Part shown: positions 1,277 through 53,960 of the stretch, in pieces
Numbering within the stretch: position 1 is the stretch's first letter
Layout of the letters: each line of letters begins with the position of its first letter
Assembly (NCBI GenBank): GCA_964035015.1
Contig: OZ036006.1
Location: 9,560,951 to 9,624,950 of the forward strand
DNA length: 64,000 nucleotides
Origin: Corallium rubrum
Lineage: Eukaryota; Cnidaria; Anthozoa; Scleralcyonacea; Coralliidae
Direction: 5' to 3'
Program-made: the position numbers and the translations under genes
The notes under the pieces: generated by a model
What the model was told of the DNA's origin: nothing
The model's database searches: none
What the model saw: the letters and a program-made list of their open reading frames with translations, nothing else

Positions 1277-1608
1277 CTTTGGTGCGCCTGGTCTTGAACC
1301 ATGTTCGGTTTGAAAAACTTTGTCGGCCACTAGTCTCAGGGCTTTATCAGTCATAACTCCTTGACCGCGAGAGGGTTGGATCCTATCAACAGCTTCCTTA
1401 AGACGATCAGGATTCGTGAAGTCGTCCAGGGTAATTTTCACAGCTGGTTGATCACTGAACTCCACGACTGCTACATGTGATCGAGACTCAGAGACAGCGA
1501 GATTGTCTATCGAGGATTTTACAAACGTTTTGAAGTATTCGAATTGTTTTGGAGTCAAGTTCTTTGATCCTTCCAAGACGAATGCTATGTCGATCACGCT
1601 CTCTGATA
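1277..1608 (-). CDS. Exon 24 (incomplete): first half of vWA domain 13 (type A)
   Basis: About 110 residues: SESVIDIAFVLEGSKNL, SHVAVVEFSDQPAVKI, PSRGQGVMTDKAL, then GSRPGAPK, where similarity stops. Every other vWA domain here is encoded whole in one exon, and would continue with the hydrophobic strand and TDG. Here the frame runs into AT-rich sequence and stops at 1235. A possible donor GTTGAA exists but would be phase 0, unlike the rest. A truncated MITE lies just beyond (771-1214). The rest of the domain is not found in 1-1276. The acceptor (atattttag) is good. Confidence 0.75.
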
Positions 1609-4600
1609 CTAAAATATAATTCAAAATATATAACGCTATATAATATATAATATATATGAAAGTGGTCTTTTGAAGAAAAGCTCGGTGCTCACAATTAAGG
1701 ACTATCCCCCTAGCACCCTATTACACTGAGAAAAATTTAAACCAAGGGTTCCCAAAATGGGGTATTTCCACCCCTTGCGAGTGTGAGACATGGCCACATG
1801 GGTCTTGAGGGTGTGGCCAACAGCATCAAGACAAGGAATTTTTCTTTATTTTTATGTTTCCATACTTTATAGTTTTAAGCAAATGTGCATTAAAAATATA
1901 AAAGATCATCTTACCACAAGGTCCAATGTGTTTTACATTAACTTCAACTTTGTTCTTACAAGAGTAGACTGTCAAAAAGCAAACATTGATGTATGTTTGT
2001 CTGTCTGTACCGCACACAGGTTTCTGATCACGTGAACAAGAGGACACAGTTGGACATTCACAGCTGGATGAGTCGTCAACGTGGGCAATACAACGACCAT
2101 GGTACGCACAACGAACAGCAGCACAGGGATCTGTGTGAGAGAAAATTAACGGTATTAGACAACCATGATACATTACCTTTTAATTGAATATTTAATTAAT
2201 TATAAGTAATAACATGACTTGAGGGAAATTAGCGATTAAATTTCCCCGCCGCCGAGGGAAGATTTGTGAAAGGGCCGCAGGCCCGAGGACTTTTACAAAT
2301 CTTCCCGAGGCAAAGGGGAAATTTAATCGCTAATTTCCCGAAAAGTCATGTTATTAGTTTGTATAATATTATGATCGCCGAGGAAAACTTTGAGAATCTT
2401 ATCGACAGGAAATTTACACGGTTGATCAGAGAAGTTGCATCTAATTTTCCCGTGCATGTTGATGAGGGAAAATATATGCAAGCGGGAAATTTAGAAGAAG
2501 ACAAAGATTTCTTTGCCTTCCAATTTTCCCTCATCAACATGCACGGGAAAATTAGAAGACAAAGGATAAATTCCCCTCTTGCATGAGCGATGAGGGAAAT
2601 ACGAGGTTTACATTCCCTCAGAGAACAAACGAATCCGAGGCGATCATAGTGTTACCTTAATAATAAACCCTTGTGTGTATGTGTAACATTTATTCATACA
2701 GCAACTTGTTTATTTTGCATAGATAATTTTAAAAGATCTTAAGAATTATATTAGAAAACACCAGTTTTCATCTAATATCTTGGGCTTTACTGGAGTATCC
2801 AACTTCAAATCAAGTGACTGAATGAACTACTGTAATTGGCTGATTATCTCATGAGTTATTATGGAAATGAACATTAACAGCACCTTTTAAGGCAATGCTT
2901 CCAGTCTTATCGCCAACGTCAGTGACGTCATCCGTTATCTTGCCGCGAACTGTGGTGGATGTTATCGAGGTAATCTCCTGATCATCCACGCGATCGCCAA
3001 TAGCAACAACGATAACCTTTACTCCTAAACCATTCAACATGCTAGCAGCTCTCCGAAGAACAGTTAAATCAGTATTTAACTTATCATTAATAAACATCAT
3101 TAAGATTTTTCTTGATTTGATATCCTTTTTAAATACATCCTTTGCCTTCAAGAACAAATCATTTATACTGTCAGCGTCTCCTTGCCATGAAATAGAATCA
3201 ATGTACTTTTTTAGTTTTTCGTCATCCTTGAAGTCGTCCAATCCAACCAATGTTTGGGATCCGTCGTGGTAAGTCAGAACAGCATAACGTGTTTTTGCTG
3301 TCTTGGGCAGCTCGATCACATGCTTCACAATCTCTTTCTCAAAGTTAAACACTTGCACAGCATCTCGTCCCGATGCACCGAGGCCAAAAATGATATCAAG
3401 TTGGTCGTCAATATCTAAGAAATCGGAACAGAAATGTTCAAGATTTTAAAAATTCTAATTTGCTTAAAAGTCATTTTGCGTTATATGTATTTGATTTTAT
3501 CTCTTGAACATGGTGATAAATCCAGTGTCACCATCCATGGTCAATTGTTATCAAATTCAGCCCAATCCAATCCATCCTAACTAACTCTATCAAAACTACT
3601 CCATTCCAATCTGGCACAACCAGTCTCCACTCCACTCCACTCCACTCCACTCCACTAGACTCCACTCCACTTCACGCCACTCCACGCCACTCCGCGCCGC
3701 GCCACTCCATTCCACTCTACTCCACTCCACTCCACGCCACTCCACTCCACGCCACTCCACTCCACTCCACTCCACTCCAATCCACTCCACTCCACTCCAC
3801 TCCACTCCACTCCACTCCACTCCACTCCACTCCACTCTACTCTACTCTACTCTACTCTACTCTACTCTACTCTACTCTACTCTACTCTACTCCACTCTAC
3901 TCCACTTCACTCCACTCTAAGCCAATAAAGTCCACTCCACTTCAATCGACTTCACTCCAATCTAACCCATCCACTTGACCACTTCACTCCATTCCAGTCC
4001 AATGTAATCCAATCCAATCCACTCCAATCCACTCCACTCCAGTACTGCAATCTAGGCAGACACTCCGATTAAATCCAAAATCCATCCAATTTCCCCACCC
4101 TTAACCTACGCTCACGCCCATCACATCAAACTAAACCTTACCAGAACAATCATCTAAACAATAACTACTGGAGCAAAAATCCAAATCGCTTCATACGGTT
4201 AATACTTCGTTACCTTTCTGAGTGTCGTCAATATCCATGGTAACATTGCGTACAACCATTGGCAAGTCAGTCGTGGTAGTAACCACATAAATATGATCCC
4301 CGTCTCCAGAAATATTCCTCAGTGCAGTCGAATCCAAGTTCTTTCCAATTCCAACCACATAGATCCCAACACCAGCTTGCTTCAAACCAAGAGCAGCGTC
4401 TTCGATCCCTTGGCTGGCTTTACCATCGGTTGTTAAGACAATCAGTACCTTAGCAACGCCAGGTCTTCCACCACCGATAGGACTAAACAGCTCTTCGCGG
4501 GCTAACTTCAGGGCTTCGTCCACGGCGGCAGTTCGTCCACGAGATGGAGTAATTTGGTTAATGGCTTGCTTCAGGGTATCTACGTTGTTCTTGTCTTTAA

Positions 4601-7600
4601 AAGATATCGAGACTCTGGCGTCGTCGCTGTATTCGATGACTGCAACATGAGTTTCCACCTCCGATATTTCGTACTTACTGATAACGCTGGTGACGAATGC
4701 CTTTAGTTGATCAAAGTCTTGTCTGGTTAGTTTTGTTGAACCATCCAAGGCAAATGCCAAGTCGGTAACTTTTAGCGTTCGGTAATCTAAAAGAGAAAGA
4801 GAAACGTCAGTTACTAATTGAATCAAGGAGGCATGGGTGGCATAAGCAGTTACCCCGCTGCCTCTCACTGCTGAAGTTAAGCGCGGTCGAATGGGGTTAG
4901 TACTTGGATGGGTTACCTACACTAGCACAAGCTGTTAGTGCGCTGCCTCTCACTGCTGAAGTTAAGCGCGGACGAATGGGGTTAGTACTTGGATGGGTTA
5001 CCTACATTAGCACAAGCTGTTAGTGCGCTGCCTCTCACTGCTGAAGTTAAGCGCGGACGAATAGGGTTAGTACTTGGATGGGTGACCTACACTAACACAA
5101 GCTGTTAGCGTACTGCCTCTCACTGCTGAAGTTAAGTCAGGTTGAATGGGGTTAGTACTTGGATGGGTTACCTACACTAGCACAAGTTGTTAGCTCACTG
5201 CCTCTCACTGCTGAAGTTAAGCCAGGTTGAATGGGGTTAGTACTTGGATGAGTGACCTACACTAGCACAAGCTGTTAGCTCACTGCCTCTCACTGCTGAA
5301 GTTAAGCCAGGTTGAATGGGGTTAGTACATGGATGGGTGACCTACACTAGCACAAGCAGTTAGCTCACTGCCTCTCACTGCTGAAGTTAAGCCAGGTTGA
5401 ATGGGGTTAGTACTTGGATGGGTTACCTACACTAGCACAAGCTGTTAGCTCACTGCCTCTCACTGCTGAAGTTAAGCCAGGTTGAATGGGGTTTGTACTT
5501 GGATGGGTTACCTACACTAGCACAAGCAGTTAGCTCACTGCCTCTCACTGCTGAAGTTAAGCCAGGTTGAATGGGGTTAGTACTTGGATGGGTTACCTAC
5601 ACTAGCACACGCTGTTAGCTCACTGCCTCTCACTGCTGAAGTTGGGCGTGGTCGAATGGGGTTAGTACTGGGATGGGTTACCTACACTAGCACAAGCTGT
5701 TAGCTCACTGCCTCTCACTGCTGAAGTTAAGCCAGGTTGAATGGGGTTTCTACTTGGATGGGTTACCTACACTAGCACAAGCTGTTAGCTCACTGCCTCT
5801 CACTGCTGAAGTTAAGCCAGGTTGAATGGGGTTTCTACTTGGATGGGTTACCTACACTAGCACAAGCTGTTAGCTCACTGCCTCTCACTGCTGAAGTTAA
5901 GCCAGGTTGAATGGGGTTTCTACTTGGATGGGTTACCTACACTAGCACAAGCTGTTAGCTCACTGCCTCTCACTGCTGAAGTTGGGCGTGGTCGAATGGG
6001 GTTAGTACTGGGATGGGTTACCTACACTAGCACAAGCTGTTAGCTCACTGCCTCTCACTGCTGAAGTTAAGCCAGGTTGAATGGGGTTTCTACTTGGATG
6101 GGTTACCTACACTAGCACAAGCTGTTAGCTCACTGCCTCTCACTGCTGAAGTTAAGCCAGGTTGAATGGGGTTAGTACTTGGATGGGTTACCTACACTAG
6201 CACACGCTGTTAGCTCACTGCCTCTCACTGCTGAAGTTGGGCGTGGTCGAATGGGGTTAGTACTGGGATGGGTTACCTACACTAGCACAAGCTGTTAGCT
6301 CACTGCCTCTCACTGCTGAAGTTAAGCCAGGTTGAATGGGGTTTCTACTTGGATGGGTTACCTACACTAGCACAAGCTGTTAGCTCACTGCCTCTCACTG
6401 CTGAAGTTAAGCCAGGTTGAATGGGGTTTCTACTTGGATGGGTTACCTACACTAGCACAAGCTGTTAGCTCACTGCCTCTCACTGCTGAAGTTAAGCCAG
6501 GTTGAATGGGGTTTGTACTTGGATGGGTTACCTACACTAGCACAAGCTGTTAGCTCACTGCCTCTCACTGCTGAAGTTAAGCCAGGTTGAATGGGGTTAG
6601 TACATGGATGGGTGACCTACACTAGCACAAGCAGTTAGCTCACTGCCTCTCACTGCTGAAGTTAAGCCAGGTTGAATGGGGTTAGTACTTGGATGGGTTA
6701 CCTACACTAGCACACGCTGTTAGCTCACTGCCTCTCACTGCTGAAGTTGGGCGTGGTCGAATGGGGTTAGTACTGGGATGGGTTACCTACACTAGCACAA
6801 GCTGTTAGCTCACTGCCTCTCACTGCTGAAGTTAAGCCAGGTTGAATGGGGTTAGTACTTGGATGGGTTACCTACACTAGCACAAGCTGTTAGCTCACTG
6901 CCTCTCACTGCTGAAGTTAAGCCAGGTTGAATGGGGTTTGTACTTGGATGGGTTACCTACACTAGCACAAGCTGTTAGCTCACTACCTCTCACTGCTGAA
7001 GTTAAGCGCGGTCGAATGGGGTTAGTACTTGGATGGGTTACCTACACTAGCACAAGCTGTTAGCTCACTACCTCTCACTGCTGAAGTTAAGCGCGGTCGA
7101 ATGGGGTTAGTACTTGGATGGGTGACCACATTAGCTTCATGTGAGTAGAGTTGTTGGTACTCTCCTGTGCCTCGAGCGTTTTTCACCGGGTTCTCCAGTT
7201 TTCCTCCCTCCGCAAAATCAACACCATAGTTTCCCCTAGACTTTCTCAATGTCCTTTTCAAACATTTTTGACCTTTCGACATTTTTTACCTTTCGGTTCC
7301 TCGTTGAAAAGGACATTTCACACCTGCAGCGCGCCAAAATTCACCGGTGAATTTTTCGACCGGTGACTTAATTCGGATCCACAGTATCTAATGTCCGTGA
7401 TTTAACATTCTTTGGAAGTTGGAGTTAAACAGACTCTTGAAAACGTTTTATAGGGGTAGAACCACTTTCCATTGCATGTACGACAACCCGAAACACGTCA
7501 AAACAGGGCGATGTACATTTCAGCGATTTCCCGCCAGAATATTTAATTAGATTCAAAAACCTGCAAGCGAAACAAGTCTGCCTCTTTCCTCCCGCCTTTC

Positions 7601-10600
7601 CGCTCTGCCGCCTTTTCGCCCGCCCTTTGAGTGATCCCTTTTAGCCGAAACCCTAGAATACTGGCAAAGCATTCTGGTAGTTGTAGTCACTCAACGGCAA
7701 CGCCATCTTGCGTCATTGTGCAAATGGCCTAATAAGTTGCCAATGGGAAAGCTTTGGTGTCGGATTTTTGCAAATGTTTGTTCCTGGTTCGGTCTTATTA
7801 TGTATGGAATTTAACATTCGAAATTTTTAAAAACACGCGTGAACATTAAGGTGGCTCCATACAGTTTCTTGAAAAATGGAAAATACAAGTTTGAGAGTCC
7901 AAAACACGTAATTAAACAATTCGGCAAAAGAATAAAACTAAATGTTATCCATAGTTAAACAGTCTGACAATCAAAAACTTTACCAAATAAATACTGCAGG
8001 CTGCCAGTAACCCAATAAACAGGCTGCCAGTTACCCTTCAAACTAGTTTAGTTCGAAAAAAACTTTGGTGACCCCCAATTTTTTTTTCTTTAAAACTTTT
8101 CTTGAAGTATGAGTAATAAATAGGCCGATTTAAAAAAAATTCTGTACAACGAAATTCTTTAAAAATTAACAAACATGATTTTTCCGGGGGGAAAATTATT
8201 CCTTCTACAGAATTTTTTTAAAATCTGCCTTTTGATTTCTCATACTTCAAGAAAATTTTTAATGAAAAAAAAAATGTGGGTCACCAAAGTTTTTTTCGAA
8301 TTAAACTAGTTTGAAGAGTAATTAGCAGCCATTTTGAAACGTCATTCTTGCTATAGAAACAACTGCTGCTATTTATTTGGTAACAGTTTTTGATTGTCAG
8401 ACTGTTTAACTATGCATAACATTTAGTTTTATTCTTTTTCCGGAATTTTTTATGCACGTGTTTTGGACTTTCAAACTTGTATTTTACGTTTTTCTAGAAA
8501 CTGTGTGGAGCCACCTTAATTGGTGTACGAAATTTCTCGTTTAGTTCGTTTATCTTTGGTATATATAACTCGTTACATGTTTCTCCGTCCGTATGTCCTG
8601 TCGAGTGACTATACGAAATTCGCTACAAATTTCGCCGTTTGTACTAGTCAGCTTTTCAACTCACTACACCATTCCTCCATTTGCCATGTGGACTTGTGCT
8701 TAGATTTTGAAAATATTACAATTTAAACAGGGCCAAATGGCAAAATCGGTAGCGAGTTCAATATAACGCGTCCCACAAAGCAGTCCCGTAATTCCACGTG
8801 AGCTGCTAATTCGTCCCCAGTCCCTGCAGTTTCTGAAGTGGCTAATTTGACGACATATTTTGGAAAAGTCGCGGAAGGAATGGACGGCTCACTTTGAGTG
8901 ATCCCTTTTAGTCGAAACCCTAGAACAATGACAAAGCATTCTGGTAGTTGTAGTCATCCAACGTCATCTCGCGCAAATGGCCTATTAAGTTGCCAATGGG
9001 AAAGCCTTGGTGTCGGATTTTTGCAACTGTTTGTTCCTGGTTCGGTCTTATTATGTATGGAATTTAACATTCGAAATTTTTAAAAACACGCGTGAACATT
9101 AACACTACCGAACGTCTGTTACATTACACCAAGCTCACAGATGTCCCACATGCACCAGTACCACTCATAAACAAACAACATCTCAGAAAGCAGAAATATC
9201 ACCAACACTTTGCTAATCATCATTAACTGCAGAATATGCGTTGTTTGGAGGTAGGTGCCGTTGGTGACCAGGCTAGTCAGCAATCTAGCCTTGTTAGCAA
9301 GCAAAGTAACTGTAAGCAATTGGGCCATGAGCAAATAGCCAGCAAACTAAGCAATAGCAATTAGGGTAATCAGAGAAGCAATAGGTGTTTGCCATGACAA
9401 CTCTGCCAAGGCAGACCACCGGCACCAGTCACACTGACAAGTCAGTGGAATAACATATACGATCTATAGGATTCTATACTTCGTATCTAACACGGGTGGG
9501 GAAAGGGCGAAGGGGGAGCACAAGCTGACGCTACTTGCAGCAAAGCAACAGACGCTCAATGAATTTCGAATGCGCGGGAAACCCCTCAAAGTAAGTGACG
9601 TAAGGGACTCCCCTAATAAGGAGAACCGCAGGCCAACTACATCAGCAGTTAACTTCGCTTAAATATATCCTATATTTAACCACATCTATACACGAGATAA
9701 CGAAGAGTAGCTTTTGCGAACGAAACTTGAGCCAAAAACATACCACATTTTCCAGGAGATCTTTGAGAAATATCTTTGCCAGCTTTACATGCGGCTACTT
9801 TCATTGCTTCCAGATTACTGTACGTCTTTAAGTCAGTTCCACAAACAGGATCATACGTGTCGGGGTAAGACTGTGCACATTTACAACTAGGATATCCCTG
9901 CTCATCAGCAACACACACTCCGTAGTAGTCGCAATCGACAGACGAACATGGATCTGTGACTAAGATCTTGACAGTTTTCTCAACGGCTGGTTTGGTACCT
10001 AAGATTTAAATGAAGTAAAGAGCGCTACTTTCATTATCTGATTTTGAAAATCTTGTCGAAAGACTTTAGCCAATTAAAAATATCCTTCTACTTTTACAGT
10101 TAGTTCATCTCACCTCATCTCATCTCACACCATCTTATCTCATCTCGACTCGTGTCATCTCATCTCATCTTATCTCATCGCATCGCATCGCATCGCATCG
10201 CATCGCATCGCATCGCATCGCATCGCATCTCATCTCATCTCATCTCATCTCATCTCATCTCATCTCACACCATCTCATCTCATCTCATCTCATCTCATCT
10301 CATCTCATCGCATCGCATCGCATCGCATCGCATCGCATCTCATCTCATCTCATCTCATCTCATCTCATCTCATCTCATCTCATCTCATCTCATCTCATCT
10401 CATCTCATCTCATCTCATCTCATCTCATCTCATCTCATCTCATCTCATCTCATCTCACCTCACCTCATCGCATCTCATCTCATCTCATCTCATCTCATCT
10501 CATCTCATCTCATCTCATCTCATCTCATCTCATCTCATCTCATCTCATCTCATCTCATCTCATCTCACACCATCTCATCTCATCTCATCTCATCTCATCT

Positions 10601-13600
10601 CATCTCATCTCATCTCTTCTCATCTCATCCCATCCCATCTCATCTCTTCTCATCTCATCTCATCTCATCTCATCTCATCTCATCTCATCTCATCTCACAC
10701 CATCTCATCTCATCTCGACTCGTGTCATCTCGTCTCATCTCATCTCATCTCATCTCATCTCATCTCATCTCATCTCGTCTCGTGTCATCTCATCTCATCT
10801 CATCTCACCTCACCTCATCTCATCTCATCTCATCTCATCTCATCTCATCTCATCTCATCTCATCTCATCTCATCTCATCTCATCTCATCTCATCTCATCT
10901 CATCTCATCTCATCTCATCTCATCTCATCTCACACCATCTCATCTCACACCATCTCATCTCATCTCATCTCGACTCGTGTCATCTCATCTCATCTCATCT
11001 CATCTTATCTATCTCATCTCATCGCATCGCATCGCATCGCACCGCACCGCATCGCATCGCATCGCATCGCATCGCATCGCATCGCATCGCATCTCATCGC
11101 ATCGCATCGCATCGCATCGCATCGCATCGCATCGCATCGCATCGCATCTCATCTCATCTCATCTCATCTCATCTCATCTCATCTCATCCCACTACAGCTC
11201 ACCTCACTTGATCACCTCACCACACCACACCTCACTACACCTCACCTCACCACACCTCACCTCACCACACCTCACTTCACCACACCTCACACCACACCTC
11301 ACCTCACCTCACCTCACCTCACACCACACCACACCACACCACACCACACCACACCACACCTCACCACACCTCACTTCACCTCACCCCACACCACACCACA
11401 CCACACCACACCACACCACACCTCACTTCACCTCACCTCACCTCACCTCACCTCACCTCACCTCACCTCACCTCACCTCACCTCACCTCACCTCACCTCA
11501 CCTCACCTCACCTCACCTCACCTCACCTCACCTCACCTCACCTCACCTCACCTCACCTCACCTCACCTCACCTCACCTCGTCTCATCTATCTTACCTCCA
11601 GTGAGAGTCACACGAATCACGTAGTCGCGTTTGTTCGTGATTCTCGTAATTTCATTGCTGTCAGCATTGCTCCCGATTGGAATCACAAGAATGTTCACAC
11701 CGTTGCGAAGGAGTTTTCGTGATTTTTCCCTCAGTCCCGTAAGTGACGCACCGGTTTTCGCATTGACGAAGAGAACGAGAACTTTCCTAGAATGTAATGG
11801 AGATGTTTCTTGGAACAGCACATAAGCCTTCTCAAGAGCGTCTTCGAGTGCCACGCCATTTTCTGACCAATCAATGAAATCGATAAACTCCTTCAATCTC
11901 GTTTTGTCTCGGAAGTCGTTGAAAGATACTCGAAGGTCCGCTCGGTTACCGTACGTCAATAAACTGTACCGTGTTTTGACTGGTTGTTCAAGCTCAATCA
12001 CTTTCTTGACAATCTCCTTCTCGAAGTTAAACACTTCAATTACCTGAGGTTCACTTGCACCGATTATGAAAGCGATGTCGAGCTGACCTTCATTCTTTCC
12101 TAAAATAATTAACAGAAAATCATTACATGCACGGCAGTCTTTGGTTTCATAAACGTTCTTAAATAATTACTCGGTTATCGTACAAAACACTGTCCGTCCA
12201 TCAGTCCGTCTGCCTGTCCGTCTGCCTGTCCGTTTGCCTGTCTGTCTGCCTGTCCGTCCGTCCGTCCGTCCGTCCGTCCGTCCGTCCGTCCGTCCGTCCG
12301 TCCGTCCGTCCGTCCGTCCGTCCGTCCGTCTGTCTGCCTGTCTGTCTGTTGATATTTCCCTCTGACAATCGTGTCCTTAGTTTTGTAGCGCAAATAAATA
12401 AGACATAAAACTTTCTCCGAGTAACACATCAAACCAACAAACTCACTTCTTTTGATATCTTCGTTTACACTCCTTACGACAACCTGCGCCAGCCCGGGCA
12501 CCCCGCTTGGTGTTCCTACAGGATAAATAGTACGTTCTCCAGATGCAATGCTCTTCAGTTCCCGCGTATCCACACGGTTTCCTATACCAACGACATAGAC
12601 TCGCACACCAGCATCCCTGAGACGTCGAACGGCTTGATCTACAGGCACGGAACTTGTTGATCTACTGTGGGTGATTAGAACTAGAGCTTTTGGAACGCCT
12701 GGACGTCCTCCATCATTGAAGATATCCCTCGCTGCTTCTTCTAATGCTTCGCTTGTTACACTGCCATAGCCTCGAGATGGTGCAAGACCATTTATAATCC
12801 GTATCACCTCACTCTCATCTTTGTTGTCAGTCAGTTTTGATACAATTCGTGGATGGTTGCTGTATTCGAGAAGACCCACGCGAGTGCTACGCGGGGAGAT
12901 GTCGAAGGATTTTACAACCGACGTCGCAAATTGTTTAACGTTCTCAAATTCTTCTTCGGTCAAGCTGTCAGAACCATCGAACACGATTGCTAGATCTAAA
13001 GGATAGAGTGGACCTGAAAAGATAAAGAAAAGATAAGAGATTAAGAGTGCGCTTGTATTAAAGTACAAGAGAGAAGGTATTTACTACACACGAAAAATAC
13101 ATGAGTTGAAGGCAAAAATGAAAAATGAAAAACGAAAAACGAAAAACGAAAAACGAAAAACGAAAAACGAAAAACGAAAAACAAAAAAACAGAAAACGAA
13201 AACGAAAAACTAAAAACACGGAAAACAAAAAACGAAAAACGAAAAGCGAAAAACGAAAAACGAAAAGCGAAAAGCGAAAAGCGAAAAACGAAAAACAAAA
13301 AACGGAAAACGAAAAACGAAAAGCGAAAAACGAAAAACGAAAAGCGAAAAGCGAAAAACGAAAAACAAAAAACGGAAAACGAAAAACGAAAAAAATTAAA
13401 AAACAAACAAACGAAAAACAAAATCATACCACATTGTCCTACGTGAACAATCTTTATCTGTTTCTGAGTCCGGCACATTTCTGCTATCAAATAACATCCG
13501 TTGGTGTACGTCTTGCCATCGCTTGCACATAGGGCATTTTGCGTGAACGAACACGCGTGTACCGAGGGACACACGCAGGAGACTGTGTCATCAGGATTAG

Positions 13601-16600
13601 CTTCACACACAGCTCCGTAAAGACAACTCGCCACTGCGCATGGGTCTAGGAATAGACAAAGAAATAAATAAGTTAAAGGTGAAATGCAATGAATTTTCAC
13701 TTAAATTTTGGTTAAAACTATAGAATATACTTTAACCCATTGCTGCCTAGGATGTCTGAGTATTCTTCCTTTGATGAGTAAAATCGTTTGGCGTTAGACA
13801 GAGTAAAACAGTAAAGGCCGTTTTTGGCCAGCTAAGGAAGAAACGGGTTATTAATCACTAGCTTGTTGACTCATTGCTGTCTAAGATGTCTGAGGGTTCG
13901 TCCTTTGATGAGTAAAATCGTCTGGTGTTAGAAAGATTAGAAAAATAGAGGCTGTCTTAGGCTGGCAAGAATATGTAAATTATCACTTGACGAAATTTGA
14001 AATATCTGATTAGTATAGGTAATAGCTTGGTTTCGAGTGTAATTTGGGAAAAACATGCACAAGTGAGTTTTTCAAAGACTATCAAAATTGCACGAGTACG
14101 AAGGACGAGTGCTATCTGAGGTCTTTGAAAAACTTACGCGTGCGTGTTTTTTATTCTCAAAATTGCACGAGAAATCATGCTATTACTTTATTGAATTAAT
14201 AATATACATGAAAATGTTAGACAAATGTTCTTCCAGCTACTAAGTTACATACCATTCATTGCTACACTTCTCGATGCTTCAAATGGTTTAAAACTGCTTT
14301 GCTTCGTTCACTAAAATGTCAAACGTTTCACTCATAGCATCTAACCTCTTCTAGTCTTCTTGCAGGGACTTTAATGACAATATTAAAACAAAATTTCTTC
14401 TGTATTTCATCGAAATGTTTTTCGACAACTCTATGCTTTGGTCGCCATATTGGATTTTCTCGTGAAGAAAAAACCATCCTTCAAAATCCGCATATACATT
14501 TCATCGGCTTTCCGGTAGTTTCCGATTGTTTATTAGCCAATCAGAGTGCTATTTGCACTGTATTACATTTTTCTGCACTGTATTACATTAAAATTGCACT
14601 CCTCTCGACCAATCTGGATGCAGTAATTCATGTATATTATTAAAGAACGAATATGATAAATATTTAGGCGTGTGTTAAACGTCGCACAATAGACGTATTT
14701 AATTCAGACGAATTTTATTCGAATTAACTTCGTCTGTAATGCGACGTCGAGTTAGACGTCGAAGTTCAGTCGAATTTAATTGTTTTTACTTGGATTCGTG
14801 GAGCCTGAAAACGACTTCTTGAAAACATGGTGCCGAATTGTCAGAGACAGAAGAGAAACATTTAATTGGACGCGACGATAATTCGTCGTGTAACTCGAAC
14901 ACGCATTATCGTCGCATTATCTGTCTGACTCAGACGAATTTAATTGCCGAGACGAATTTAATTCGTGTGTCGAATTCAGGGACGTAGCCAGGGGGGAGCC
15001 CCTTTTGATATAAAACGACAGACATGTAACTACAAAACTGATGCAATACGAATTGTGTCAGGAAATAAACTGTAAACAGTGTATTCAATCTATTGAATGT
15101 ATTCATTTTGAGTATCTATGCGACGTTTGCGTGTTTTGAGTCTGTAAAATCTTCCTCCAAAAGCCAGGAAATGGCATTTCAGCGACTCTCGATTTCAAAA
15201 TTTCCCGGGGGAGCATGCCCCTGGTCCCCCCTAAAAATTTATTTCAATTTCGCCTCCCCGCCTTTCAAAATCCTGGCTACATCCCTGGTCGAATTTAATC
15301 GAGTTATACGCCGCAGTTCATCGAATAAAATTCAAATAATTAAATTCGTCGATTGTGCGACGTTTAGCGCATGTCTGACCTTTAAAGAGAGCCAAGGAAA
15401 TCTTGTAAATATCATTCTCTGTTGGTGTTCCACTTGGTTTAATAATGTTGTCTGTGTTTTCAGAAATGACGCTAAGCTGATCGCTATCGACACGGTTGCC
15501 GTAACCAACAAGAACCACCCGAACACCTTGATTTGTTAACGACCTTACTGCCTGACGCAGAGTTGACAAAGATGCTGACGCCATACCACTCATGAATAGC
15601 ACTAAGACTTTGTTTGAGTCAGGTTTAGATGTCCTGAATAAAGAGTACGCTGACCGCAAAGCACTTTCAACGCCCGTCCCATCACCTGGCCATTTAATGT
15701 TGCGGATTTGATCTTTCAAGCGATAGAGGTCTGTAAACGTTTGCATAGGGATCTGAGTTCTAGCGGTATTGGAGTATGTGATGACGCCATAGCGAGGAAC
15801 AATGCCTTTCTGAAGGTCAATCAATAAATTCGTTAGCGCCCTCTCTTGTTCAAACGTAGTCTCGCCGTTAGGATCGGAAGCACCGAGAGCAAAAACGATG
15901 TCGAGGTTGACTTCTGATTTTCCTGTTTTAAAAGAAGAAGGTTGAGTAAGAAATGTGAGGTGGTGTGAAGAGAGGTGAGATGAGGTGTGTGTGGGTGGTG
16001 GTGGGGTGTGGATAGGACCAATTGAGATAAGGTAAAGTGTGGTGTGATTGGGTGGAATGAGACGGGCACACGCGTAAAAAAAAGTTGTTACAGCATTGTT
16101 GCCTGGACAATCTGTAACAACGTTGTTATCATGTGTGAACAACCTTGATGAATTAACAATACTGTTCATCATTGTTTCAACATGTTGTTACAGCTTTATG
16201 AAACAACAACAGTTGTCCACTCATGTTGAAACAACCGAAGGACGTGTTGATACACCAGTCATGTTCACAGTTGTTGTAACATTCTTGTTCAGCCTTGTTA
16301 CTTCATCATGCTGTTACAACATGTTGTATCATGTGCGAACAACGTTGCTGGCTAGAAAAATGTGCTGTTAGAACAACTTGTCCCATGATTTATCTGTGAA
16401 CAAGTTGTTCGAACTATAAGTGAACAACTTGTTGACAACTTGTTCACGGGGTGCAGCACAACGTACATTGTCCACGGCGGGCAGCACAACATTGTTCATG
16501 CCTGTTGACAACCGTGAACAAGTTGTGCGTTTTTTACGCGTGACGTGTGGTGTGAGTGGATAAGATGAAATGGGTGGAGTAAAGAAAAGTAAAATTAAGT

Positions 16601-19600
16601 GAGCTAAGGTAAGATGGGGGTAATATGGGTGGGGTAACGTCAGATTGAGAACGTGAGGTGAGATACATGTATGTGGAAAAGGTGAGGTGAGGTGAAGTGA
16701 GATGGGGTGGGGTAATATGTGAGGTGTGATAGGTGGAAAAAGTAAGATAGAGTGAAGTGAAATAGGGTGAGGTGAGAGACGTTTAGTGGATGAGATAGAT
16801 GAAGTGAAGTGAAGTGAAGTGAAGTGGAGTGAAGTGAAGTGAAGTGAAGTGAAGTGAAGTGAAGTGAAGTGAAGTGAAGTGAAGTGAAGTGAAGTGAAGT
16901 GAAGTGAAGTGAAGTGAAGTGAAGTGAAGTGAAGTGAAGTGAAGTGAAGTGAAGTGAAGTGAAGTGAAGTGAAGTGAAGTGAAGTGAAGTGAAGTGAAGT
17001 GAAGTGAAGTGAAGTGAAGTGAAGTGAAGTGAAGTGAAATGAAGTGAAGTGAAGTGAAGTGAAGTAACGGCAGCTGGGGAGAAGTCAGATAAGTATAGGT
17101 AAGTTGATATCTAAATAAAAACAAAAACTTACTTTTCTGAGTATTATCAAAAATGTCCTTGACAATACGTGACGGCAATTTAATCATTTCATAAACATTC
17201 TTCACGGAATACACCTTGTCATCCCCGGATGTTAAATTTCGAAGTTCGTTCTGATCTGCAGCTGGTCCTACGCCAATCACATACACTGAGGTTCCAGTCT
17301 TTTTCAAAGGTCTCACAACTCTCGCCAGAGACTCTCTTCCGGTCGACTTTCCATCGGTAACTAAAAGAACAACATTAGGAATTCCCGGGCGGTCGCCACC
17401 TTCGCGGGTAAACACCCGATTTATAGCCACCTGCAAGGCCTGATCTGTAACGGTGCCGGAGCCACCGGATGCTTGAACGTCATCAATAGCGTCCTTGAGT
17501 TTGCCTTGGTCATAATATTCATTCAAGGGGAATTCTAAGGTAGCTTTGTCGCTGTACTCGATCAGACTCACCCGGGTCGATGTTTCGCCAATGGCCAGTG
17601 AGTCGATAATTGATTTAATGAATACTTTTGAAAGTCTAAAGTCTTGAGGAGTTGAGCTCGAAGAACCGTCCAGAATAAACAGTAAGTCGAGGACGGGTTT
17701 GGATTCTATAGAACCACAAAAAATTGTGAAAAAAAACGCATTCTGTCAGAAGATTCATTTAAAAATCATAGACGAGAAAGAGTGTTTTATCAGGATATCC
17801 AATTTCCAAATACCGAGACGTTTGTTGAAAACCAAGGTTTTTGAAACAAACTTCAAGGTGTTTGGATATCCTGATGAAACACTCTTCTGAGTGTTTGATA
17901 TAGCATCTCAAACAAATCTGTATTTTAAGAGAAAATCGAGGTAAAGGTTTGCTTAATTTATGTAATTTCTTCCACCGATAGCCAAATCACCAACATAGTA
18001 CTGATTTCTTTTGTTTTCTCCTCATGAATTATTAATGAGTTTGAAATAGGTGGAATAAAATCGTATGATTTGTATTAAGGTCAAAATAAGTTTCCTTCCG
18101 GATGGACACGATCAACAGTTATTTTGGCTAACGTAAGACGGTTTTATTTGTCTCATCCCATCTAATTCAATCTGTGTGTTTCCCATGTCTCCAAAGTCAA
18201 GTGATATATCGTCCGCCGCGTAAAAAGAAATGAGAAGGCTGGAAACGAGAACAAGGCTTATATAGCAATAACGCGAAGTGAAAAGATAGTAAACTGCTGA
18301 GAATAGTTTTGATAACGAAATACTGACGTTTCAAGCAGAGTCCTTCATCACAGTAAAAAGTAGAGTGTTGTGTAGGCAGTGTTTTAGATAGAGCAAAGTG
18401 AAAAGATAGTAAACTGCTAAGAATAGTTTTGATAACGAAATACTGACGTTTCAAGCAGAGCCCTTCATCAGAGTAAAAAAGTAGAGTGATGTGTAGACAG
18501 TGTTTTGGATAGAGCAAAGTGAAAAGATGGTAAACTGACGAGAATAGTTTTGATAACGAAATACTGACGTTTCAAGCAGATCCCTTCATCAGAGTAAAAT
18601 GTAGAGTGCTGTGTAGGCAGTGTTTTAGATAGAGCAAAGTGAAAAGATGGTAAACTGCTGAGAATAGTTTTAATAACGAAATACTGACGTTTCAAGCAGA
18701 GCTCTTCATCAGAGTAAAATGTAGAGTGCTGTGTAGGCAGTGTTTTAGATAGAGCAAAGTGAAAAGATGGTAAACTGCTGAGAATAGTTTTGATAACGAA
18801 ATACTGACGTTTCAAGCAGAGCCCTTCATCAGAGTAAAAATGTAGAGTGCTGTGTAGGCAGTGTTTTAGATAGAGCAAAGTGAAAAGATGGTAAACTGCT
18901 GAGAATAGTTTTAATAACTAAATACTGACGTTTCAAGCAGAGTTCTTCATCAGAGTAAAAATGTAGAGTGCTGTGTAGGCAGTGTTTTAGATAGAGCAAA
19001 GTGAAAAGATGGTAAACTGCTGAGAATAGTTTTAATAACTAAATACTGACGTTTCAAGCAGAGTTCTTCATCAGAGTAAAAATGTAGAGTGCTGTGTAGG
19101 CAGTGTTTTAGATAGAGCAAAGTGAAAAGATGGTAAACTGCTGAGATTAGTTTTGATAACGAAATACTGACGCTTCAAAAGGAACGCTTCAACAGAGTAA
19201 AATGTAGGCAGTGTTTTAGATAGAGCAAAGTGAAAAGATGGTAAACTGCTGAGATTAGTTTTGATAACGAAATACTGACGCTTCAAAAGGAACGCTTCAA
19301 CAGAGTAAAATGTGGTGAAGGGCTCTGCTTGAAACGTCAGTATTTCGTTATCAAAACTATTCTCAGCAGTTTACCATCTTTTCACTTTGCTCTATCCAAA
19401 ACACTGCCTACACAACGCTCTACTTTTCACTCTGATGAAGGGCTCTGCTTGAAACGTCAGTATTTCGTTATCAAAACTATTCTCGACACTTTACCATCTT
19501 TTCACTTTGCTCTATCTGAAACAGTGCCTACACAGCACTCTAATTATATAGCAATACACTCACCACACACTTTGTCGTGTTTCACAGTCAATGCTTTCCC

Positions 19601-37600: not shown

Positions 37601-40600
37601 CTCCCAGGTCTTTTAAAGCTTTGGCCGCTCGTTCAAAATCCCCAGTGTTAATAATAGACTGCCCATCACTTGCAATAAGCAGTACTTTAGGAACACCTGA
37701 GCGGGGATAGCCACTGGTTAACATCGCGCTGAAGTTTCCATGCAACTCAGTTAAGATCGTTTCCAAGGGTTTTCGGTACGGATTGTTGGGAAAGTTTTCA
37801 ATGTTATATTTTAAGGTCTCAAGGCTTTGTCCATTCTTCATCATTTCGACCCAAGAAACACTGCCTCCTTGACGTATGTAACCTAGTTGATTTCTCGATG
37901 AAGAGAAGTCGAAGAAACTTAACAAGCCTTTTAGAAAAACGTTCGTTTGTTTTAGCATTGCTGTTCGCTGGCTTCCAGTGAAGTCCGTGAGGTAGATAAG
38001 GTCGACGGCGTGGTCGCTCACTTTAAATAAAAGGGAAAGTAGAAAAGTATTAGAAAGGAAGGGAAGGAGGGAGGAAGGGAGGGAGGAAGGAAAGGAGGGA
38101 GGTAAGGAGGGTGGGGGAGGGAGGGAGGGGGAGGGAAGGAGGGAGGGAGGGAGGGAAGGAGAGAGGGAGGAGGGAGGGAAGGAGGGAGGGAAGGAGGGAG
38201 GGGAGAGGGAGGGAGAAAGGGAAGGGAGAGGAAGGCATGGAGGGAGGGAAGGAAGGAAGGAAGGAAGGAAGGAAGGAAGGAAGGAAGGAAGGAAGGAAGG
38301 AAGGAAGGAAGGAAGGAAGAAAGGAAGGAAGGAAGGAAGGAAGGAAGGAAGGAAGGAAGGAAGGAAGGAAGGAAGGAAGGAAGGAAGGAAGGAAGAAAGG
38401 AAGGAAGGAAGAAAGGAAGGAAGGAAGGAAGGAAGAAAGGAAGGAAGGAAGGAAGGAAGGAAGGAAGGAAGGAAGGAAGGAAGGAAGGAAGGAAGGAAGG
38501 AAGGAAGGAAGGAAGGAAGGAAGGAAGGAATGATAATACGATATGATAATACGAAGACAGTTTAAAGACAGATAGAACCATACATACCACAAGTTCCAGT
38601 CTTCACAATCGTAATTAGAGTTTTCCTGGAACATGCTTCTTGTTGCATTAAACATTCGTTGTCATAGGTCCGTCCATCACTGCCACAAACTTGTGCGATC
38701 ACTTTAGGGCAACCACTGGGACAGACACATTTATATCCTAGTTCTGAGTTCGGATGGCGAAAACAGATGGAGTAGAAAGGACAACTTGTTCCTTTGCATG
38801 GATCTAAAACAAGAAGACAACACTTAACAAAAAGTTACTACAACCCAACGTTTCGACACTACGATCTAGTGTCTTCATCAGGGGGTGAGTTGTTGTGAAC
38901 ACAAGTCCCTAACTAAAGGTCTTCGTATAGGTTTTCAGTGTCATTTCTGTAAAGCGCTCTCAATTCGTCAGAATTTATGCCACAAAAATAAAATAGATAT
39001 CGTTAGAAAGCTATGAATTTGTAGAATACAATGGTGTCTTTGGTTTCGCGATAAACACAAACCGTTAATAGTTGTGATTTTTTTAATTAAAACAAGAGAG
39101 CTTCACTCGGGGCGACTTAAGAACAAAGCGTTTCATTTTGTTCAAAAATATTTTTCGCAGTTCGATTCCGAGATAAATGTCCAGCAAAAATGTGTCAGCG
39201 TTTGTTTATTTATTGCCTGGTTTCGAATTATGACTTATTTTGTCCGAAATTTTAACTCTGACAATGAATTTTCGCGTTGTGTTCGCGCTTTATCGCATTA
39301 GAGTAACTATTATTTTACAGTCACTTGCTATTCACTTTCGCAAGTTCGTTGGGAAGTTCAAAGTTCGTTTTAAACTGCGCATTTGATTGACTTCTTCCCT
39401 TCTTGGTTCCTAGTAGCCGGCAATCAATTGCCTAGTTCAAAACGAACTTTGAACTTCCAAACGAACTTCGTAACGAACTTCTGAACATTTTGGTGAAAAG
39501 TGACAAATGAGTTGCAAATGACTACAGTTGTCTTTGTAAATATGTGATACTGTAGTTTTAGACAAAATCTTTTGTAAAAATGAGAGAATCTGTCTTAAAA
39601 AATATGTTTTAAAATCTTCAAAATTTTGCTCAAATATGATGTCAGGTCGCGGGAAATGCCATGGCAGACTCAATTTTCAAAAATTTTCCGGCGGAACATA
39701 CCCCCGGACCCCCCTAGAAATTTGGCAGTCTTACTGCCCCCCTGACTAAAAAATCCTAGCATCTAAACGAACAAATTTTACAAACATAAGATTATGGCGT
39801 ACCTTGTTCTCTGAGACACTCGTCCTGCTTTAATTTCATCCCTCCAGATGGTCCACAATGTCCGCACCATCCACCGCATTTTGCCGAGACTACACGACCA
39901 TTTCTCGACCTGTAGTAATCTTGCATCTTTATTCCAGGAGGGAAACTAGTCCCCACCCACTTCACGTCTTGGTCAATACTAAGCCCTGTGTTCGTCAAGT
40001 CAATTTTAAAACTACCCTTCCTACAGTTGCCTTGATTGGCTGAGAAGCAATCACCGGCTGTGCCAAACTCCACAGGATTTCCACCAGGGTCTACGGTGGC
40101 AAAACTGTAATCCTCTGAAACAATCGACATTTTTGTAATATCCAACCTGACTTTGGCGAACTTAGTCTTGCCAGCTTGCGAGTACAGCATTTTGCCTGGG
40201 TTACCATCACAACGGTAACGTTCGTAGACTGGAGTTGTGGGTAATCTTTCTGCGTAAACAATGGCATAGTTGTTTTTGTATCCTCTTGGTAAGGTGAGGT
40301 ACTCTTTCGGTTGCGAGGTGTTCATTCCATGACAGTAGATCCTGACTGGTATCTGACATTTTGAGTCTATCTGAAGAGCATATTCCCCATCATCTTTGCC
40401 AAGTTCTTCCGTAAGAACGTCTTTGCAACTTGAAACTCCTGTTGAGATGAAATTTTGTTGAGACAACGTGCATTAAAGTGAAGTGAAGTGACGTGACGTG
40501 ACGTGACGTGACGTGACGTGACGTGACGTGACGTGAAGTGGAGTGGAGTGGAGTGGAGTGAAGTGAAGTGAAGTGAAGTGACGTGACGTGACGTGACGTG

Positions 40601-43600
40601 ACGTGACGTGACGTGACGTGGCGTGGCGTGGCGTGGCGTGGCGTGACGTGACGTGACGTGACGTGACGTGACGTGACGTGACGTGACGTGACGTGACGTG
40701 ACGTGAAGTGAAGTGAAGTGAAGTGAAGTGAAGTGAAGTGAAGTGAAGTGACGTGACGTGACGTGACGTGACGTGACGTGACGTGACGTGACGTGACGTG
40801 AAGTGAATTGAAGTGAAGTGAAGTGAAGTGAAGTGACGTGACGTGACGTGAAGTGAAGTGAAGTGAAGTGAAGTGAAGTGAAGTGAAGTGAAGTGAAGTG
40901 AAGTGAAGTGAAGTGAAGTGAAGTGAAGTGAAGTGAAGTGAAGTGAAGTGAAGTGAAGTGGAGTGAAGTGAAGTGGAGTGGAGTGGAGTGGAGTGAGGTG
41001 AAGTGAGGTAAAAGTGAAGCAAGGTGAGGTATTAAAATGCAACTTGTTGAATTATCAAAGCAATCCTTACCGCAATGACCATAGTGAACAATAGTAATGT
41101 TTCGTTGTCTTAAGCATGATTCGTACTTCACAACACATGGATTGGGAAATGTTCTACCATCTGAACCACAGACGGGATCGTATTCTTTGGTACATACAAT
41201 GGGGCAGCGGCAAATAGCTTTTCCAGTCGGGAGCATAATGCAGAACCCGCCCTGGTGGCACTTGAAGTCTTCATTACAATTACTCGTCTCGACAGCTGCA
41301 TAATCCTGAATGTCGTCACTTTCACCAAATTCGGTACCAAGAAGTTTCTCTATAACACGTACAATGATATGAAGTCATCACCAGAAATTTTGGTCATTTG
41401 TGCCGCTGCTCTCTGTCGCCTAATAATATAATTATGTATTCTAATGCGTTTGATTCTATTGTATGCTAGTGTATTCTCATTATTCAGGTCATTGAGTTCT
41501 TTAGAATTTGCCTAAATCGTGCATGTATGTATATGTAAACAGCCTGTAAACGGCTATAAGAACTGTGAAATCAAGCAAGTTCAAACGCTTTTGGAAATAC
41601 TATGCCAGGGACAAATCAGGATCTCTATGTGCTCAGGAAGTAGACTGACTCATGCGCAATGCATGCATTACTGTTGAGAATCTCCATTATTATGATCGTT
41701 AATGCGCACGCGCGCCACCATCTGGCAATGTGCCATTTAGCCTGGTACCCTGGCCCAATTTCAAAAGAAATATGGGCCAGGTAACCACTAATCTTATTCT
41801 CGCGTCATCAGGGCTAAATCCACTTATGACGATTGCAATTTCACCCATAGACACTAGAAACGCGTGAAATTTCAACCAATATATGAAAGCAAAAGTCTTC
41901 AGTGGTTACCTGGCACATATTCTTTGATTGGGCCAGGGTACCAGGCTATGTGCTAAAACCTCGTCCCCAGGGCATTTTGCCTCCACGTTGGGAGGTCGGC
42001 GAAAATGGCCCTGGCATCGGCTGGTCACGTGACACCCAGAATTTTGGGGTGTTTTGGCAAGAAAATTTATGCGGTCTTTGTGTTTTGTTTTTGTATAATA
42101 CGTATACATGAATAATAAATAAGAAATATTTAACGCTCTGCCGAATCACTCATGTGAACCTTTATCATAAATGCAACTGGCTAGCATTATTCATCATGAT
42201 ACTCCCCACGATTATCCAGGATACATTTAAATGTCGGGAAGAAACATATATCTAATGTTGTTCTTGACTTTAACCAAAGCTATCGTTACAATTCTTTGGA
42301 TGAACTTCGCAGAGTGGATTTATTGCAATTCATATTTTGATGAATAAATTACACTGTATCTGAATTAATCAAGTTTTTAAACCGGCCAATCCGATTATAG
42401 AATCGACCAGCCAATGCCAGGGCCATTTTCGCCGACCTCCCAACGTGGAGGCAAAATGCCCTGGGGACGAGGTTGTATGTGCTATTCTGAGTGACGAACC
42501 ATACCAGGTAAGGAGAGAAAACGCTACTCGGCTGGGATTTGAACCAACGAACTTCGGTTTACTAGTCCGACGCTCTAGCAACTCACGATTACATGGACAT
42601 TTCTATCCCAGTTAACCTAGCTAGCCCAGTTGCGACAACCGAGTTACAAGGTCAAGTTGGGAGCAGGGTCGTGGAATAATGGTACTTACATTTGATATTT
42701 CAAAACTGAAATCTAGTTTCTTCAATATCGAGAGACCTAACTCTTCATCTTACGTTGTTGGAATAATTATGGGACAGCGAAATCGGTTGACTGGTTGACC
42801 CTCAAGTCCCGTCGTCTGCACTTGAAATATTGCTGCTTTATCAACGTAACTTACCATTTGAACCAAAGCTCCAGTCGTTATAAAACACGATGAACTTGCT
42901 TTTTGTTTCCGTTTCATATTCCGGCACAATACATGGATCGCGAATCTCGACTGCGCATCAGAATGACGCGTTCTGAGTCGGGATAAAACTTATTTCAATT
43001 TATAACATTAGGCTGAGGAATTCAGTGCAATGAGTTCAGAAATGAAAATGCAAATGAAAACTGCAGCTTTAGCCTGGTGTTATAAAGTTAATTCAAGCTT
43101 TATTCCGACTCAGAACGCATCATTCTGATGCGCAATCGAGATTCGCGATCCATGTATTGCTTGCACACCTGACGTATTACCTACCGTCTGGGGGCCCCCT
43201 TGACTACACCACTGCACCTAATATCATTATTCATCTTGTTTGTGTAATTTATAGTTTATATTTTGAAAACACATTCTTGGTAAGGCTAGCCCTCTTTGCC
43301 GAGATCCGGCATATCTCAGTTGTTTAAAGTGTATATGAAACGAAAATGAAGTTTGTCTTATTTGAAAGAACTCTTAAAATAATGGGGAATATCAATTTAC
43401 AGCTTTTTCATATTTTACTTAGTTCTTGAGATATTTAGACTTATGTGATATTCAAATGTGATAACTTATGGTTCGTTTTTTTCTAATTAACATATTCGAA
43501 AATCGTGAATATTTTTAAGATTATTGATCAAAATCACTTGTAACTTGTCTTTCATGTTTAGTTGCATGAACTGTAGCAATATGCAAGTGATTTGGTCCCC

Positions 43601-53960: not shown

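Follow-up and report, generated by a model that had tools for sequence, protein, structure and literature searches.

A run of 24 exons with NtA-like, FS/Kazal, GON and serial vWA modules as the probable 5′ part of a very large matrix protein gene in red coral

The window, i.e., the whole stretch of 64,000 nucleotides analysed here (C25:9560951-9624950), probably constitutes the 5′ part of one very large functional gene, of which it holds 24 exons and which would encode a secreted mosaic protein of the matrix or adhesion type. The modules, their open frames, the exons with phase 1 at both ends (1-1 exons), the alternation of vWA classes, the same-strand continuation of the array and the purifying selection on downstream exons are observed. 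We infer that the window exons are spliced into one transcript; the product would be exported, and the 3′ end of the gene would lie outside the window. The genome examined comprises 474 Mb in 312 contigs.

Exons and modules of the window

The first-pass annotation, made from the sequence alone, had described a run of 24 exons on the minus strand, and its exon number and module counts were borne out: one start exon, nine follistatin/Kazal (FS) modules, one GON and 13 vWA modules. All modules of the last three kinds gave Pfam matches over the cut-off (Kazal 9/9, GON 1/1, VWA 13/13). In the order in which they are read on the minus strand, the exons are as follows (class A and class B of vWA are defined in the next section):

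53591..53960, minus strand: exon 1, putative signal peptide and NtA-like domain, 123 aa; ATG open reading frame from 53960
41071..41349, minus strand: exon 2, FS1; Kazal_2 E=2.7e-13; phase 1-1
39803..40438, minus strand: exon 3, GON; Pfam GON E=2.6e-55
38588..38803, minus strand: exon 4, FS2; Kazal_2 E=6.2e-13
37454..38020, minus strand: exon 5, vWA1, class A, divergent; VWA E=3e-10 (scored with the earlier end 37422); best donor after 37454
36220..36435, minus strand: exon 6, FS3, Cys6 and Cys8 lost; Kazal_2 E=1.1e-07
35112..35321, minus strand: exon 7, FS4; Kazal_2 E=2.1e-09
30161..30730, minus strand: exon 8, vWA2, class A; VWA E=1.1e-36
28043..28603, minus strand: exon 9, vWA3, class A; VWA E=7.3e-28
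26483..27031, minus strand: exon 10, vWA4, class B; detected by the in-window vWA HMM; VWA E=1.5e-12; weak donor (1.1)
25309..25524, minus strand: exon 11, FS5; Kazal_2 E=6e-11
22925..23491, minus strand: exon 12, vWA5, class A, complete metal site D-S-S-T-D; VWA E=4.9e-45
21654..22199, minus strand: exon 13, vWA6, class B; VWA E=1.1e-14
19564..19776, minus strand: exon 14, FS6, Cys6 and Cys8 lost; Kazal_2 E=2.6e-10
17133..17705, minus strand: exon 15, vWA7, class A, complete metal site; VWA E=2.2e-43
15380..15922, minus strand: exon 16, vWA8, class B; VWA E=1.5e-19
13430..13645, minus strand: exon 17, FS7; Kazal_2 E=1.1e-09
12447..13013, minus strand: exon 18, vWA9, class A; VWA E=7.8e-39
11596..12099, minus strand: exon 19, vWA10, class B; VWA E=5.2e-17
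9744..9998, minus strand: exon 20, FS8, Cys6 and Cys8 lost; Kazal_2 E=1.7e-07
4214..4786, minus strand: exon 21, vWA11, class A; VWA E=7.9e-40
2884..3414, minus strand: exon 22, vWA12, class B; VWA E=2.2e-12; weak donor (0.1)
1915..2130, minus strand: exon 23, FS9; Kazal_1 E=4.2e-11
1277..1608, minus strand: exon 24, vWA13, class A by motif, first part only; VWA E=3.1e-24 over 1-106 of 174

None of the 23 complete exons contains a stop, and a splice model without vWA4, with the earlier vWA1 donor and ending in the partial vWA13, yields 3,171 stop-free residues. The part of vWA13 that lies in the window covers positions 1-109 of the in-window vWA model, the remainder being outside. The donor of exon 1 (GAG/gtgagt, phase 1) is strong with a score of 7.7, and in all 22 complete internal exons the best-scoring acceptor and the best-scoring donor are both in phase 1; low scores occur at the FS1 acceptor (0.6) and at the two weak donors listed above. 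Over the window and the downstream array together, the best sites are 1-1 in 110 of 121 module stretches (109/120 without exon 1, whose acceptor means nothing); among the control ORFs this is true of 28/400, or of 28/163 when only those with both sites are counted. The agreement of phases, which the first-pass annotation had put forward for a single run of exons, holds throughout the window, but it is weak evidence for one gene, because every complete internal exon is 1-1 and any two of them could be joined in frame. The phases therefore show that the symmetric exons are real, from which a single transcript does not follow. In all 24 exons the codon-usage scores are low (0.055-0.347 bits per codon), and they carried little weight in the analysis.

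The first domain is designated NtA-like on the basis of sequence comparison and is unconfirmed as Pfam NtA. Exon 1 matched no Pfam family at E<=1, agrin was absent from its PDB sequence search at E<=10, and PF03146 was nowhere over the cut-off in the genome, where its one match (E=0.09) is on another contig and contains a stop. In a pairwise alignment with the agrin NtA domain 1jb3_A, exon 1 reached a local score of 51 (shuffles: mean 26.6, sd 4.6), which 2 of 5000 shuffles attained, and an end-to-end score that none of 3000 shuffles attained. Since this is a single comparison, picked for apparent likeness, the exon is named NtA-like and not NtA; the NtA label originally given to it stands as a pairwise likeness beyond that of shuffles and falls short as a Pfam assignment. 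A genome search with exon 1 matched only itself and no relative. A 100-residue part of the exon, modelled with AlphaFold2 from the single sequence, had a pLDDT of 46, which is too poor to help; a fold search of the PDB with this model returned 635 matches at E<=10, none of them at E<=0.001, with neither agrin nor TIMP among the best 50 of the 635. The N-terminus of exon 1 is hydrophobic, as assessed without a signal-peptide program.

The introns harbor long tandem-repeat arrays (window positions 4840-7135, 10105-11579, 25592-26465, 36528-37088, 38055-38530, and 40476-41019), several of which yield long open frames that lie in another frame or on the plus strand and make no sense as coding sequence, and many introns contain microsatellites. 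Intron 1 carries a pair of tRNA-Ser (AGA) genes or gene copies, one on each strand (48445-48517 on the minus strand, 48775-48847 on the plus strand), beyond which Rfam and tRNA scans gave nothing.

Repeating unit, extent and growth of the array

In a tree of 63 nearly complete vWA domains, the 27 copies whose metal motif begins with G in place of D/E (class B) cluster together with a support of 0.999. The complete metal site (D-S-S-T-D, five positions) is present in 14 of the 36 class A copies, vWA5 and vWA7 of the window among them, and in none of the 27 class B copies. Adjacent vWAs alternate between A and B in 41 of 46 pairs, which 0 of 20,000 shuffles reach; two partial vWAs that we read as B were scored as A by the script, which lowers this count. 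The vWA that follows an FS is of class A in 18 of 18 cases (reached by 1/20,000 shuffles). Among the FS modules, Cys6 and Cys8, which form a pair in Kazal folds, are jointly lost in 4 of 28 copies, three of which are in the window (FS3, FS6, FS8). Fisher's test gives p 2.4e-4 for the joint loss, whereby the FS copies are related and the events are not independent, and the p value keeps as discordant the row of FS f9529793, which apparently lacks Cys6 alone and has a Cys one column away that we read as shifted.

The flank examined downstream comprises 200 kb to the left of the window on C25, of which 69,950 of 200,000 bases are N, and starts or ends within these N blocks are invisible; judging by their sizes, the blocks are probably not assembly gaps. 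The array continues there on the same strand to at least C25:9,364,789, which is 250 kb from the start exon (~70 kb of it N), so that window and downstream array amount to 121 module stretches with 16,272 residues. These comprise 76 vWA (a number that includes halves of split domains), 28 FS, 14 Ig-like, 2 GON, and 1 NtA-like stretch. What the window shows is the head alone; the whole array is over four times longer. At C25:9531-9539 kb some of the downstream vWAs are split over two exons near model position 82-90, and the complete ones of the window are unsplit. The 14 Ig-like modules (C25:9506484-9515167) are of the Big_13 type, 1-1 in phase and arranged in tandem blocks within the FS/vWA array, with a longest self-match of 2,902 bp at 97.6%; the one copy that was put to Pfam matched Big_13 with E=6e-06 and 27.1 bits against a cut-off of 27. 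The stretch that they occupy had at first glance been a module-free gap and a candidate gene boundary, which was rejected on account of these modules.

The two longest self-matches of the region, one of 6,317 bp (93.4% identity) and one of 5,544 bp (96.2% identity), are located at 9400-9424 kb and include introns; the array has therefore grown recently. In the same part (C25:9391-9424 kb), recent tandem copies of an FS-A-B-A-B unit, introns included, were observed, and lysine-rich tails are present on several of its class B vWAs. In nine groups of similar downstream exons, none of them including a window exon, raw pN/pS is 0.20-0.37 (pooled 0.30; uncorrected, with pairs that are not independent), which shows purifying selection on those exons.

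GON matches over the cut-off number 22 in the genome, counted by exon and spread over 7 contigs. The GON of the window was compared with three others from C25:

C25:9379119-9379718: second GON domain of the array
C25:6705401-6705979: GON domain 2.9 Mb away
C25:10115156-10116458: further GON domain

These three are 42-50% identical to the one in the window, and nine Cys columns are invariant in all four. The GON at 6.705 Mb sits between FS modules, so that the order FS-GON-FS recurs, which counts for the joining of FS1, GON, and FS2 in the window; no vWA was found near it among the matches listed, where counts are lower bounds. The second GON of the array is followed by vWA, FS, FS in a layout that resembles that of the window, and its vWA groups with vWA1 (tree support 0.77). 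The FS that succeeds GON in the window was not seen there, and the two layouts are not identical. The GON exon found no relative in the bacterial/archaeal and viral collections and, by sequence, no PDB entry at E<=10. Elsewhere in the genome, further large vWA clusters are present at C32:4.10-5.06 Mb, C35:6-125 kb, and C8:47.58-48.06 Mb, as is a single exon of the GFP family (E=1.7e-8), which is in keeping with a cnidarian but no proof of one.

One gene, several genes or a separate first exon

For the reading of the window as the 5′ part of one gene, we counted the open frames, the Pfam matches, the 1-1 sites, the same-strand continuation, the pN/pS values, the regular A/B alternation, the joint cysteine losses, the donor of exon 1 as the best among the start-exon candidates, the PDB matches of FS2 to agrin and of vWA5 to collagen VI alpha 3, and FS1, whose open frame has no in-frame ATG upstream. 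Against it we counted the downstream N blocks, the length of intron 1 (12.2 kb), exon 1, which has no relative found in the genome and scores lower in codon usage (0.055 bits per codon) than any of the 23 others, vWA13 and the downstream vWA at C25:9523460-9523852, which are without a usable donor, and the vWA-FS-FS succession behind the second GON, which suits a paralogous gene. The last two points would fit a tandem cluster of paralogous matrix genes, in which the window gene ends near vWA13 or at C25:9523460 and the modules beyond, the second GON included, are neighbouring copies. We consider such a cluster rather unlikely, though a serious contender. The lone donor candidate of vWA13 (after 1277) is weak (-2.9) and in phase 0, and otherwise its frame reaches a stop, as does that of C25:9523460-9523852, so that either could be a last exon. 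The similarity of the vWA behind the second GON to vWA1, the other GON and vWA loci on the same contig and the N blocks, which could conceal start and stop exons, point in the same direction. However, no second convincing start exon was found in the visible 194 kb. A scan over 264 kb for signal-peptide exons with a phase-1 donor, with thresholds chosen when exon 1 was already known, gave five candidates on the minus strand and none on the plus strand. Exon 1 has the best donor of the five, although its start is not the most hydrophobic one. Among the remaining four, three proved to be Ig-like copies that stand behind an intron tract, and the fourth resembles, by eye, an FS piece in the same kind of position. 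Several genes are also disfavored by the 1-1 sites of nearly all other module stretches, by the Ig-like modules in the boundary-like gap and by the differing layouts behind the two GON domains. A general scan for further 1-1 exons picked up a single one, which is an Ig-like copy on the minus strand, and nothing on the plus strand; since it missed the 13 other Ig-like copies, its silence elsewhere means little.

It might also be that exon 1 belongs to another gene or is an alternative first exon, and that the start of the FS/GON/vWA gene lies at another place in intron 1. The distance between exon 1 and FS1, the uniqueness of exon 1 in the genome and its phase 1, which suits any partner, would allow for this. 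A codon test of the intron for further exons, in which the best candidate totals only 5.9 bits, speaks little to the question, because exon 1 itself totals 6.8 bits and the weakest FS 7.1. Nevertheless, we judge a separate exon 1 improbable, as FS1 needs an upstream start and exon 1 provides a start, a putative signal peptide and the matching phase, no other start exon in the gap passed the same scan, and NtA followed by FS is the order of agrin. That the locus is a decayed pseudogene or an assembly artefact of repeated vWA and FS exons, for which the intronic microsatellites and a few truncated modules could be cited, appears very improbable indeed in view of the stop-free complete exons, the downstream pN/pS and the concerted loss of two cysteines that pair in Kazal folds.

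On the preferred reading of one gene, the protein would begin with a signal peptide and an agrin-like head, i.e., the NtA-like domain followed by FS, with GON inside the FS stretch, and would continue past the window as a beads-on-a-string array in which FS - vWA(A) - vWA(B) is the repeating unit. By analogy, those class A vWAs whose metal site is complete may bind matrix partners, and class B vWAs, which lack a complete one, may act as spacers or as the second half of an A-B unit; the FS modules would serve as disulphide-stiffened linkers. The agrin NtA domain anchors to laminin, and the NtA-like head together with FS might similarly tie the molecule to a basement-membrane partner. The array would have grown via unequal exchange within introns, since units of 1-1 exons are gained or lost without a break of the frame. 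In its widest form, the reading takes in the whole array as one gene that begins with the NtA-like exon, covers at least 250 kb and has module exons numbering ~120 or more and >16,000 residues. Its product would be a giant matrix filament with an agrin-like head and GON, along which vWAs with (A) and without (B) a metal site alternate; an Ig-like segment would lie inside, and tandem duplication of FS-A-B-A-B would still be lengthening it. We put this forward tentatively, as a possibility that falls short of an even chance.

Comparison with known matrix proteins

All parts of the window are known matrix modules. Their combination, which the first-pass annotation had proposed as new, is real at the DNA level, with the restriction that the first domain is NtA-like, and no protein joining NtA-like, FS, and GON modules and a vWA array was found in the open-access literature searched. 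In length, the array may rank with the longest arrays of this type. If the reading is true, the locus would show how symmetric 1-1 exons let a matrix protein grow by exon copying, offer a natural series of vWAs with and without the metal site in which the role of that site in a filament can be tested, and provide a setting outside proteases for studying the role of GON. Interest would be high if one transcript spans the array.

The N-terminal half of agrin would be matched by the succession of a putative signal peptide, an NtA-like domain and FS modules, provided that exon 1 is joined to FS1, and FS2, the only one of the nine FS modules that was tested, has its best PDB match in agrin (8s9p_A, 6 stretches, E=7.4e-45). 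In contrast to agrin, NtA remains below Pfam detection here, GON lies within the FS stretch with FS1 alone in front of it, a vWA array follows, and the 24 window exons contain no laminin G, SEA or over-cut-off EGF match. GON domains are found in ADAMTS9/20 and in C. elegans GON-1, with which the window shares this domain; unlike in those proteins, GON is flanked by FS, and the 24 exons show no metalloprotease or thrombospondin type 1 match. Matrilins are vWA-rich secreted matrix proteins with EGF modules. The richness in vWA is shared, whereas here FS takes the place of EGF (EGF matches in the window are all below cut-off and inside FS exons) and the array is far longer. The second-best PDB match of vWA5 is the mussel proximal thread matrix protein 1 (PTMP1; 4cn8_A, 2 stretches), a vWA protein with a chain of 454 residues, which is not known to contain FS, GON or NtA.

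Collagen VI alpha 3 resembles the window in its serial vWAs, which gave matches over the Pfam cut-off in 13 of 13 window copies, and vWA5, the only one of the 13 that was tested, has its best PDB match there (9han_C, 8 stretches, E=2.9e-138). Unlike in collagen VI, FS modules stand between the vWA pairs, A and B alternate regularly, and no collagen triple-helix match is present in the 24 window exons. A beads-on-a-string arrangement of vWA is described for collagen VI (PMC3919171). Finally, the agrin-like proteins of the red coral skeleton, for which vWA, GON or NtA are not named in the passages of the source that describe them (PMC7853314), have in those same passages FS/Kazal modules, a place in the cnidarian skeletal matrix and large repetitive loci.
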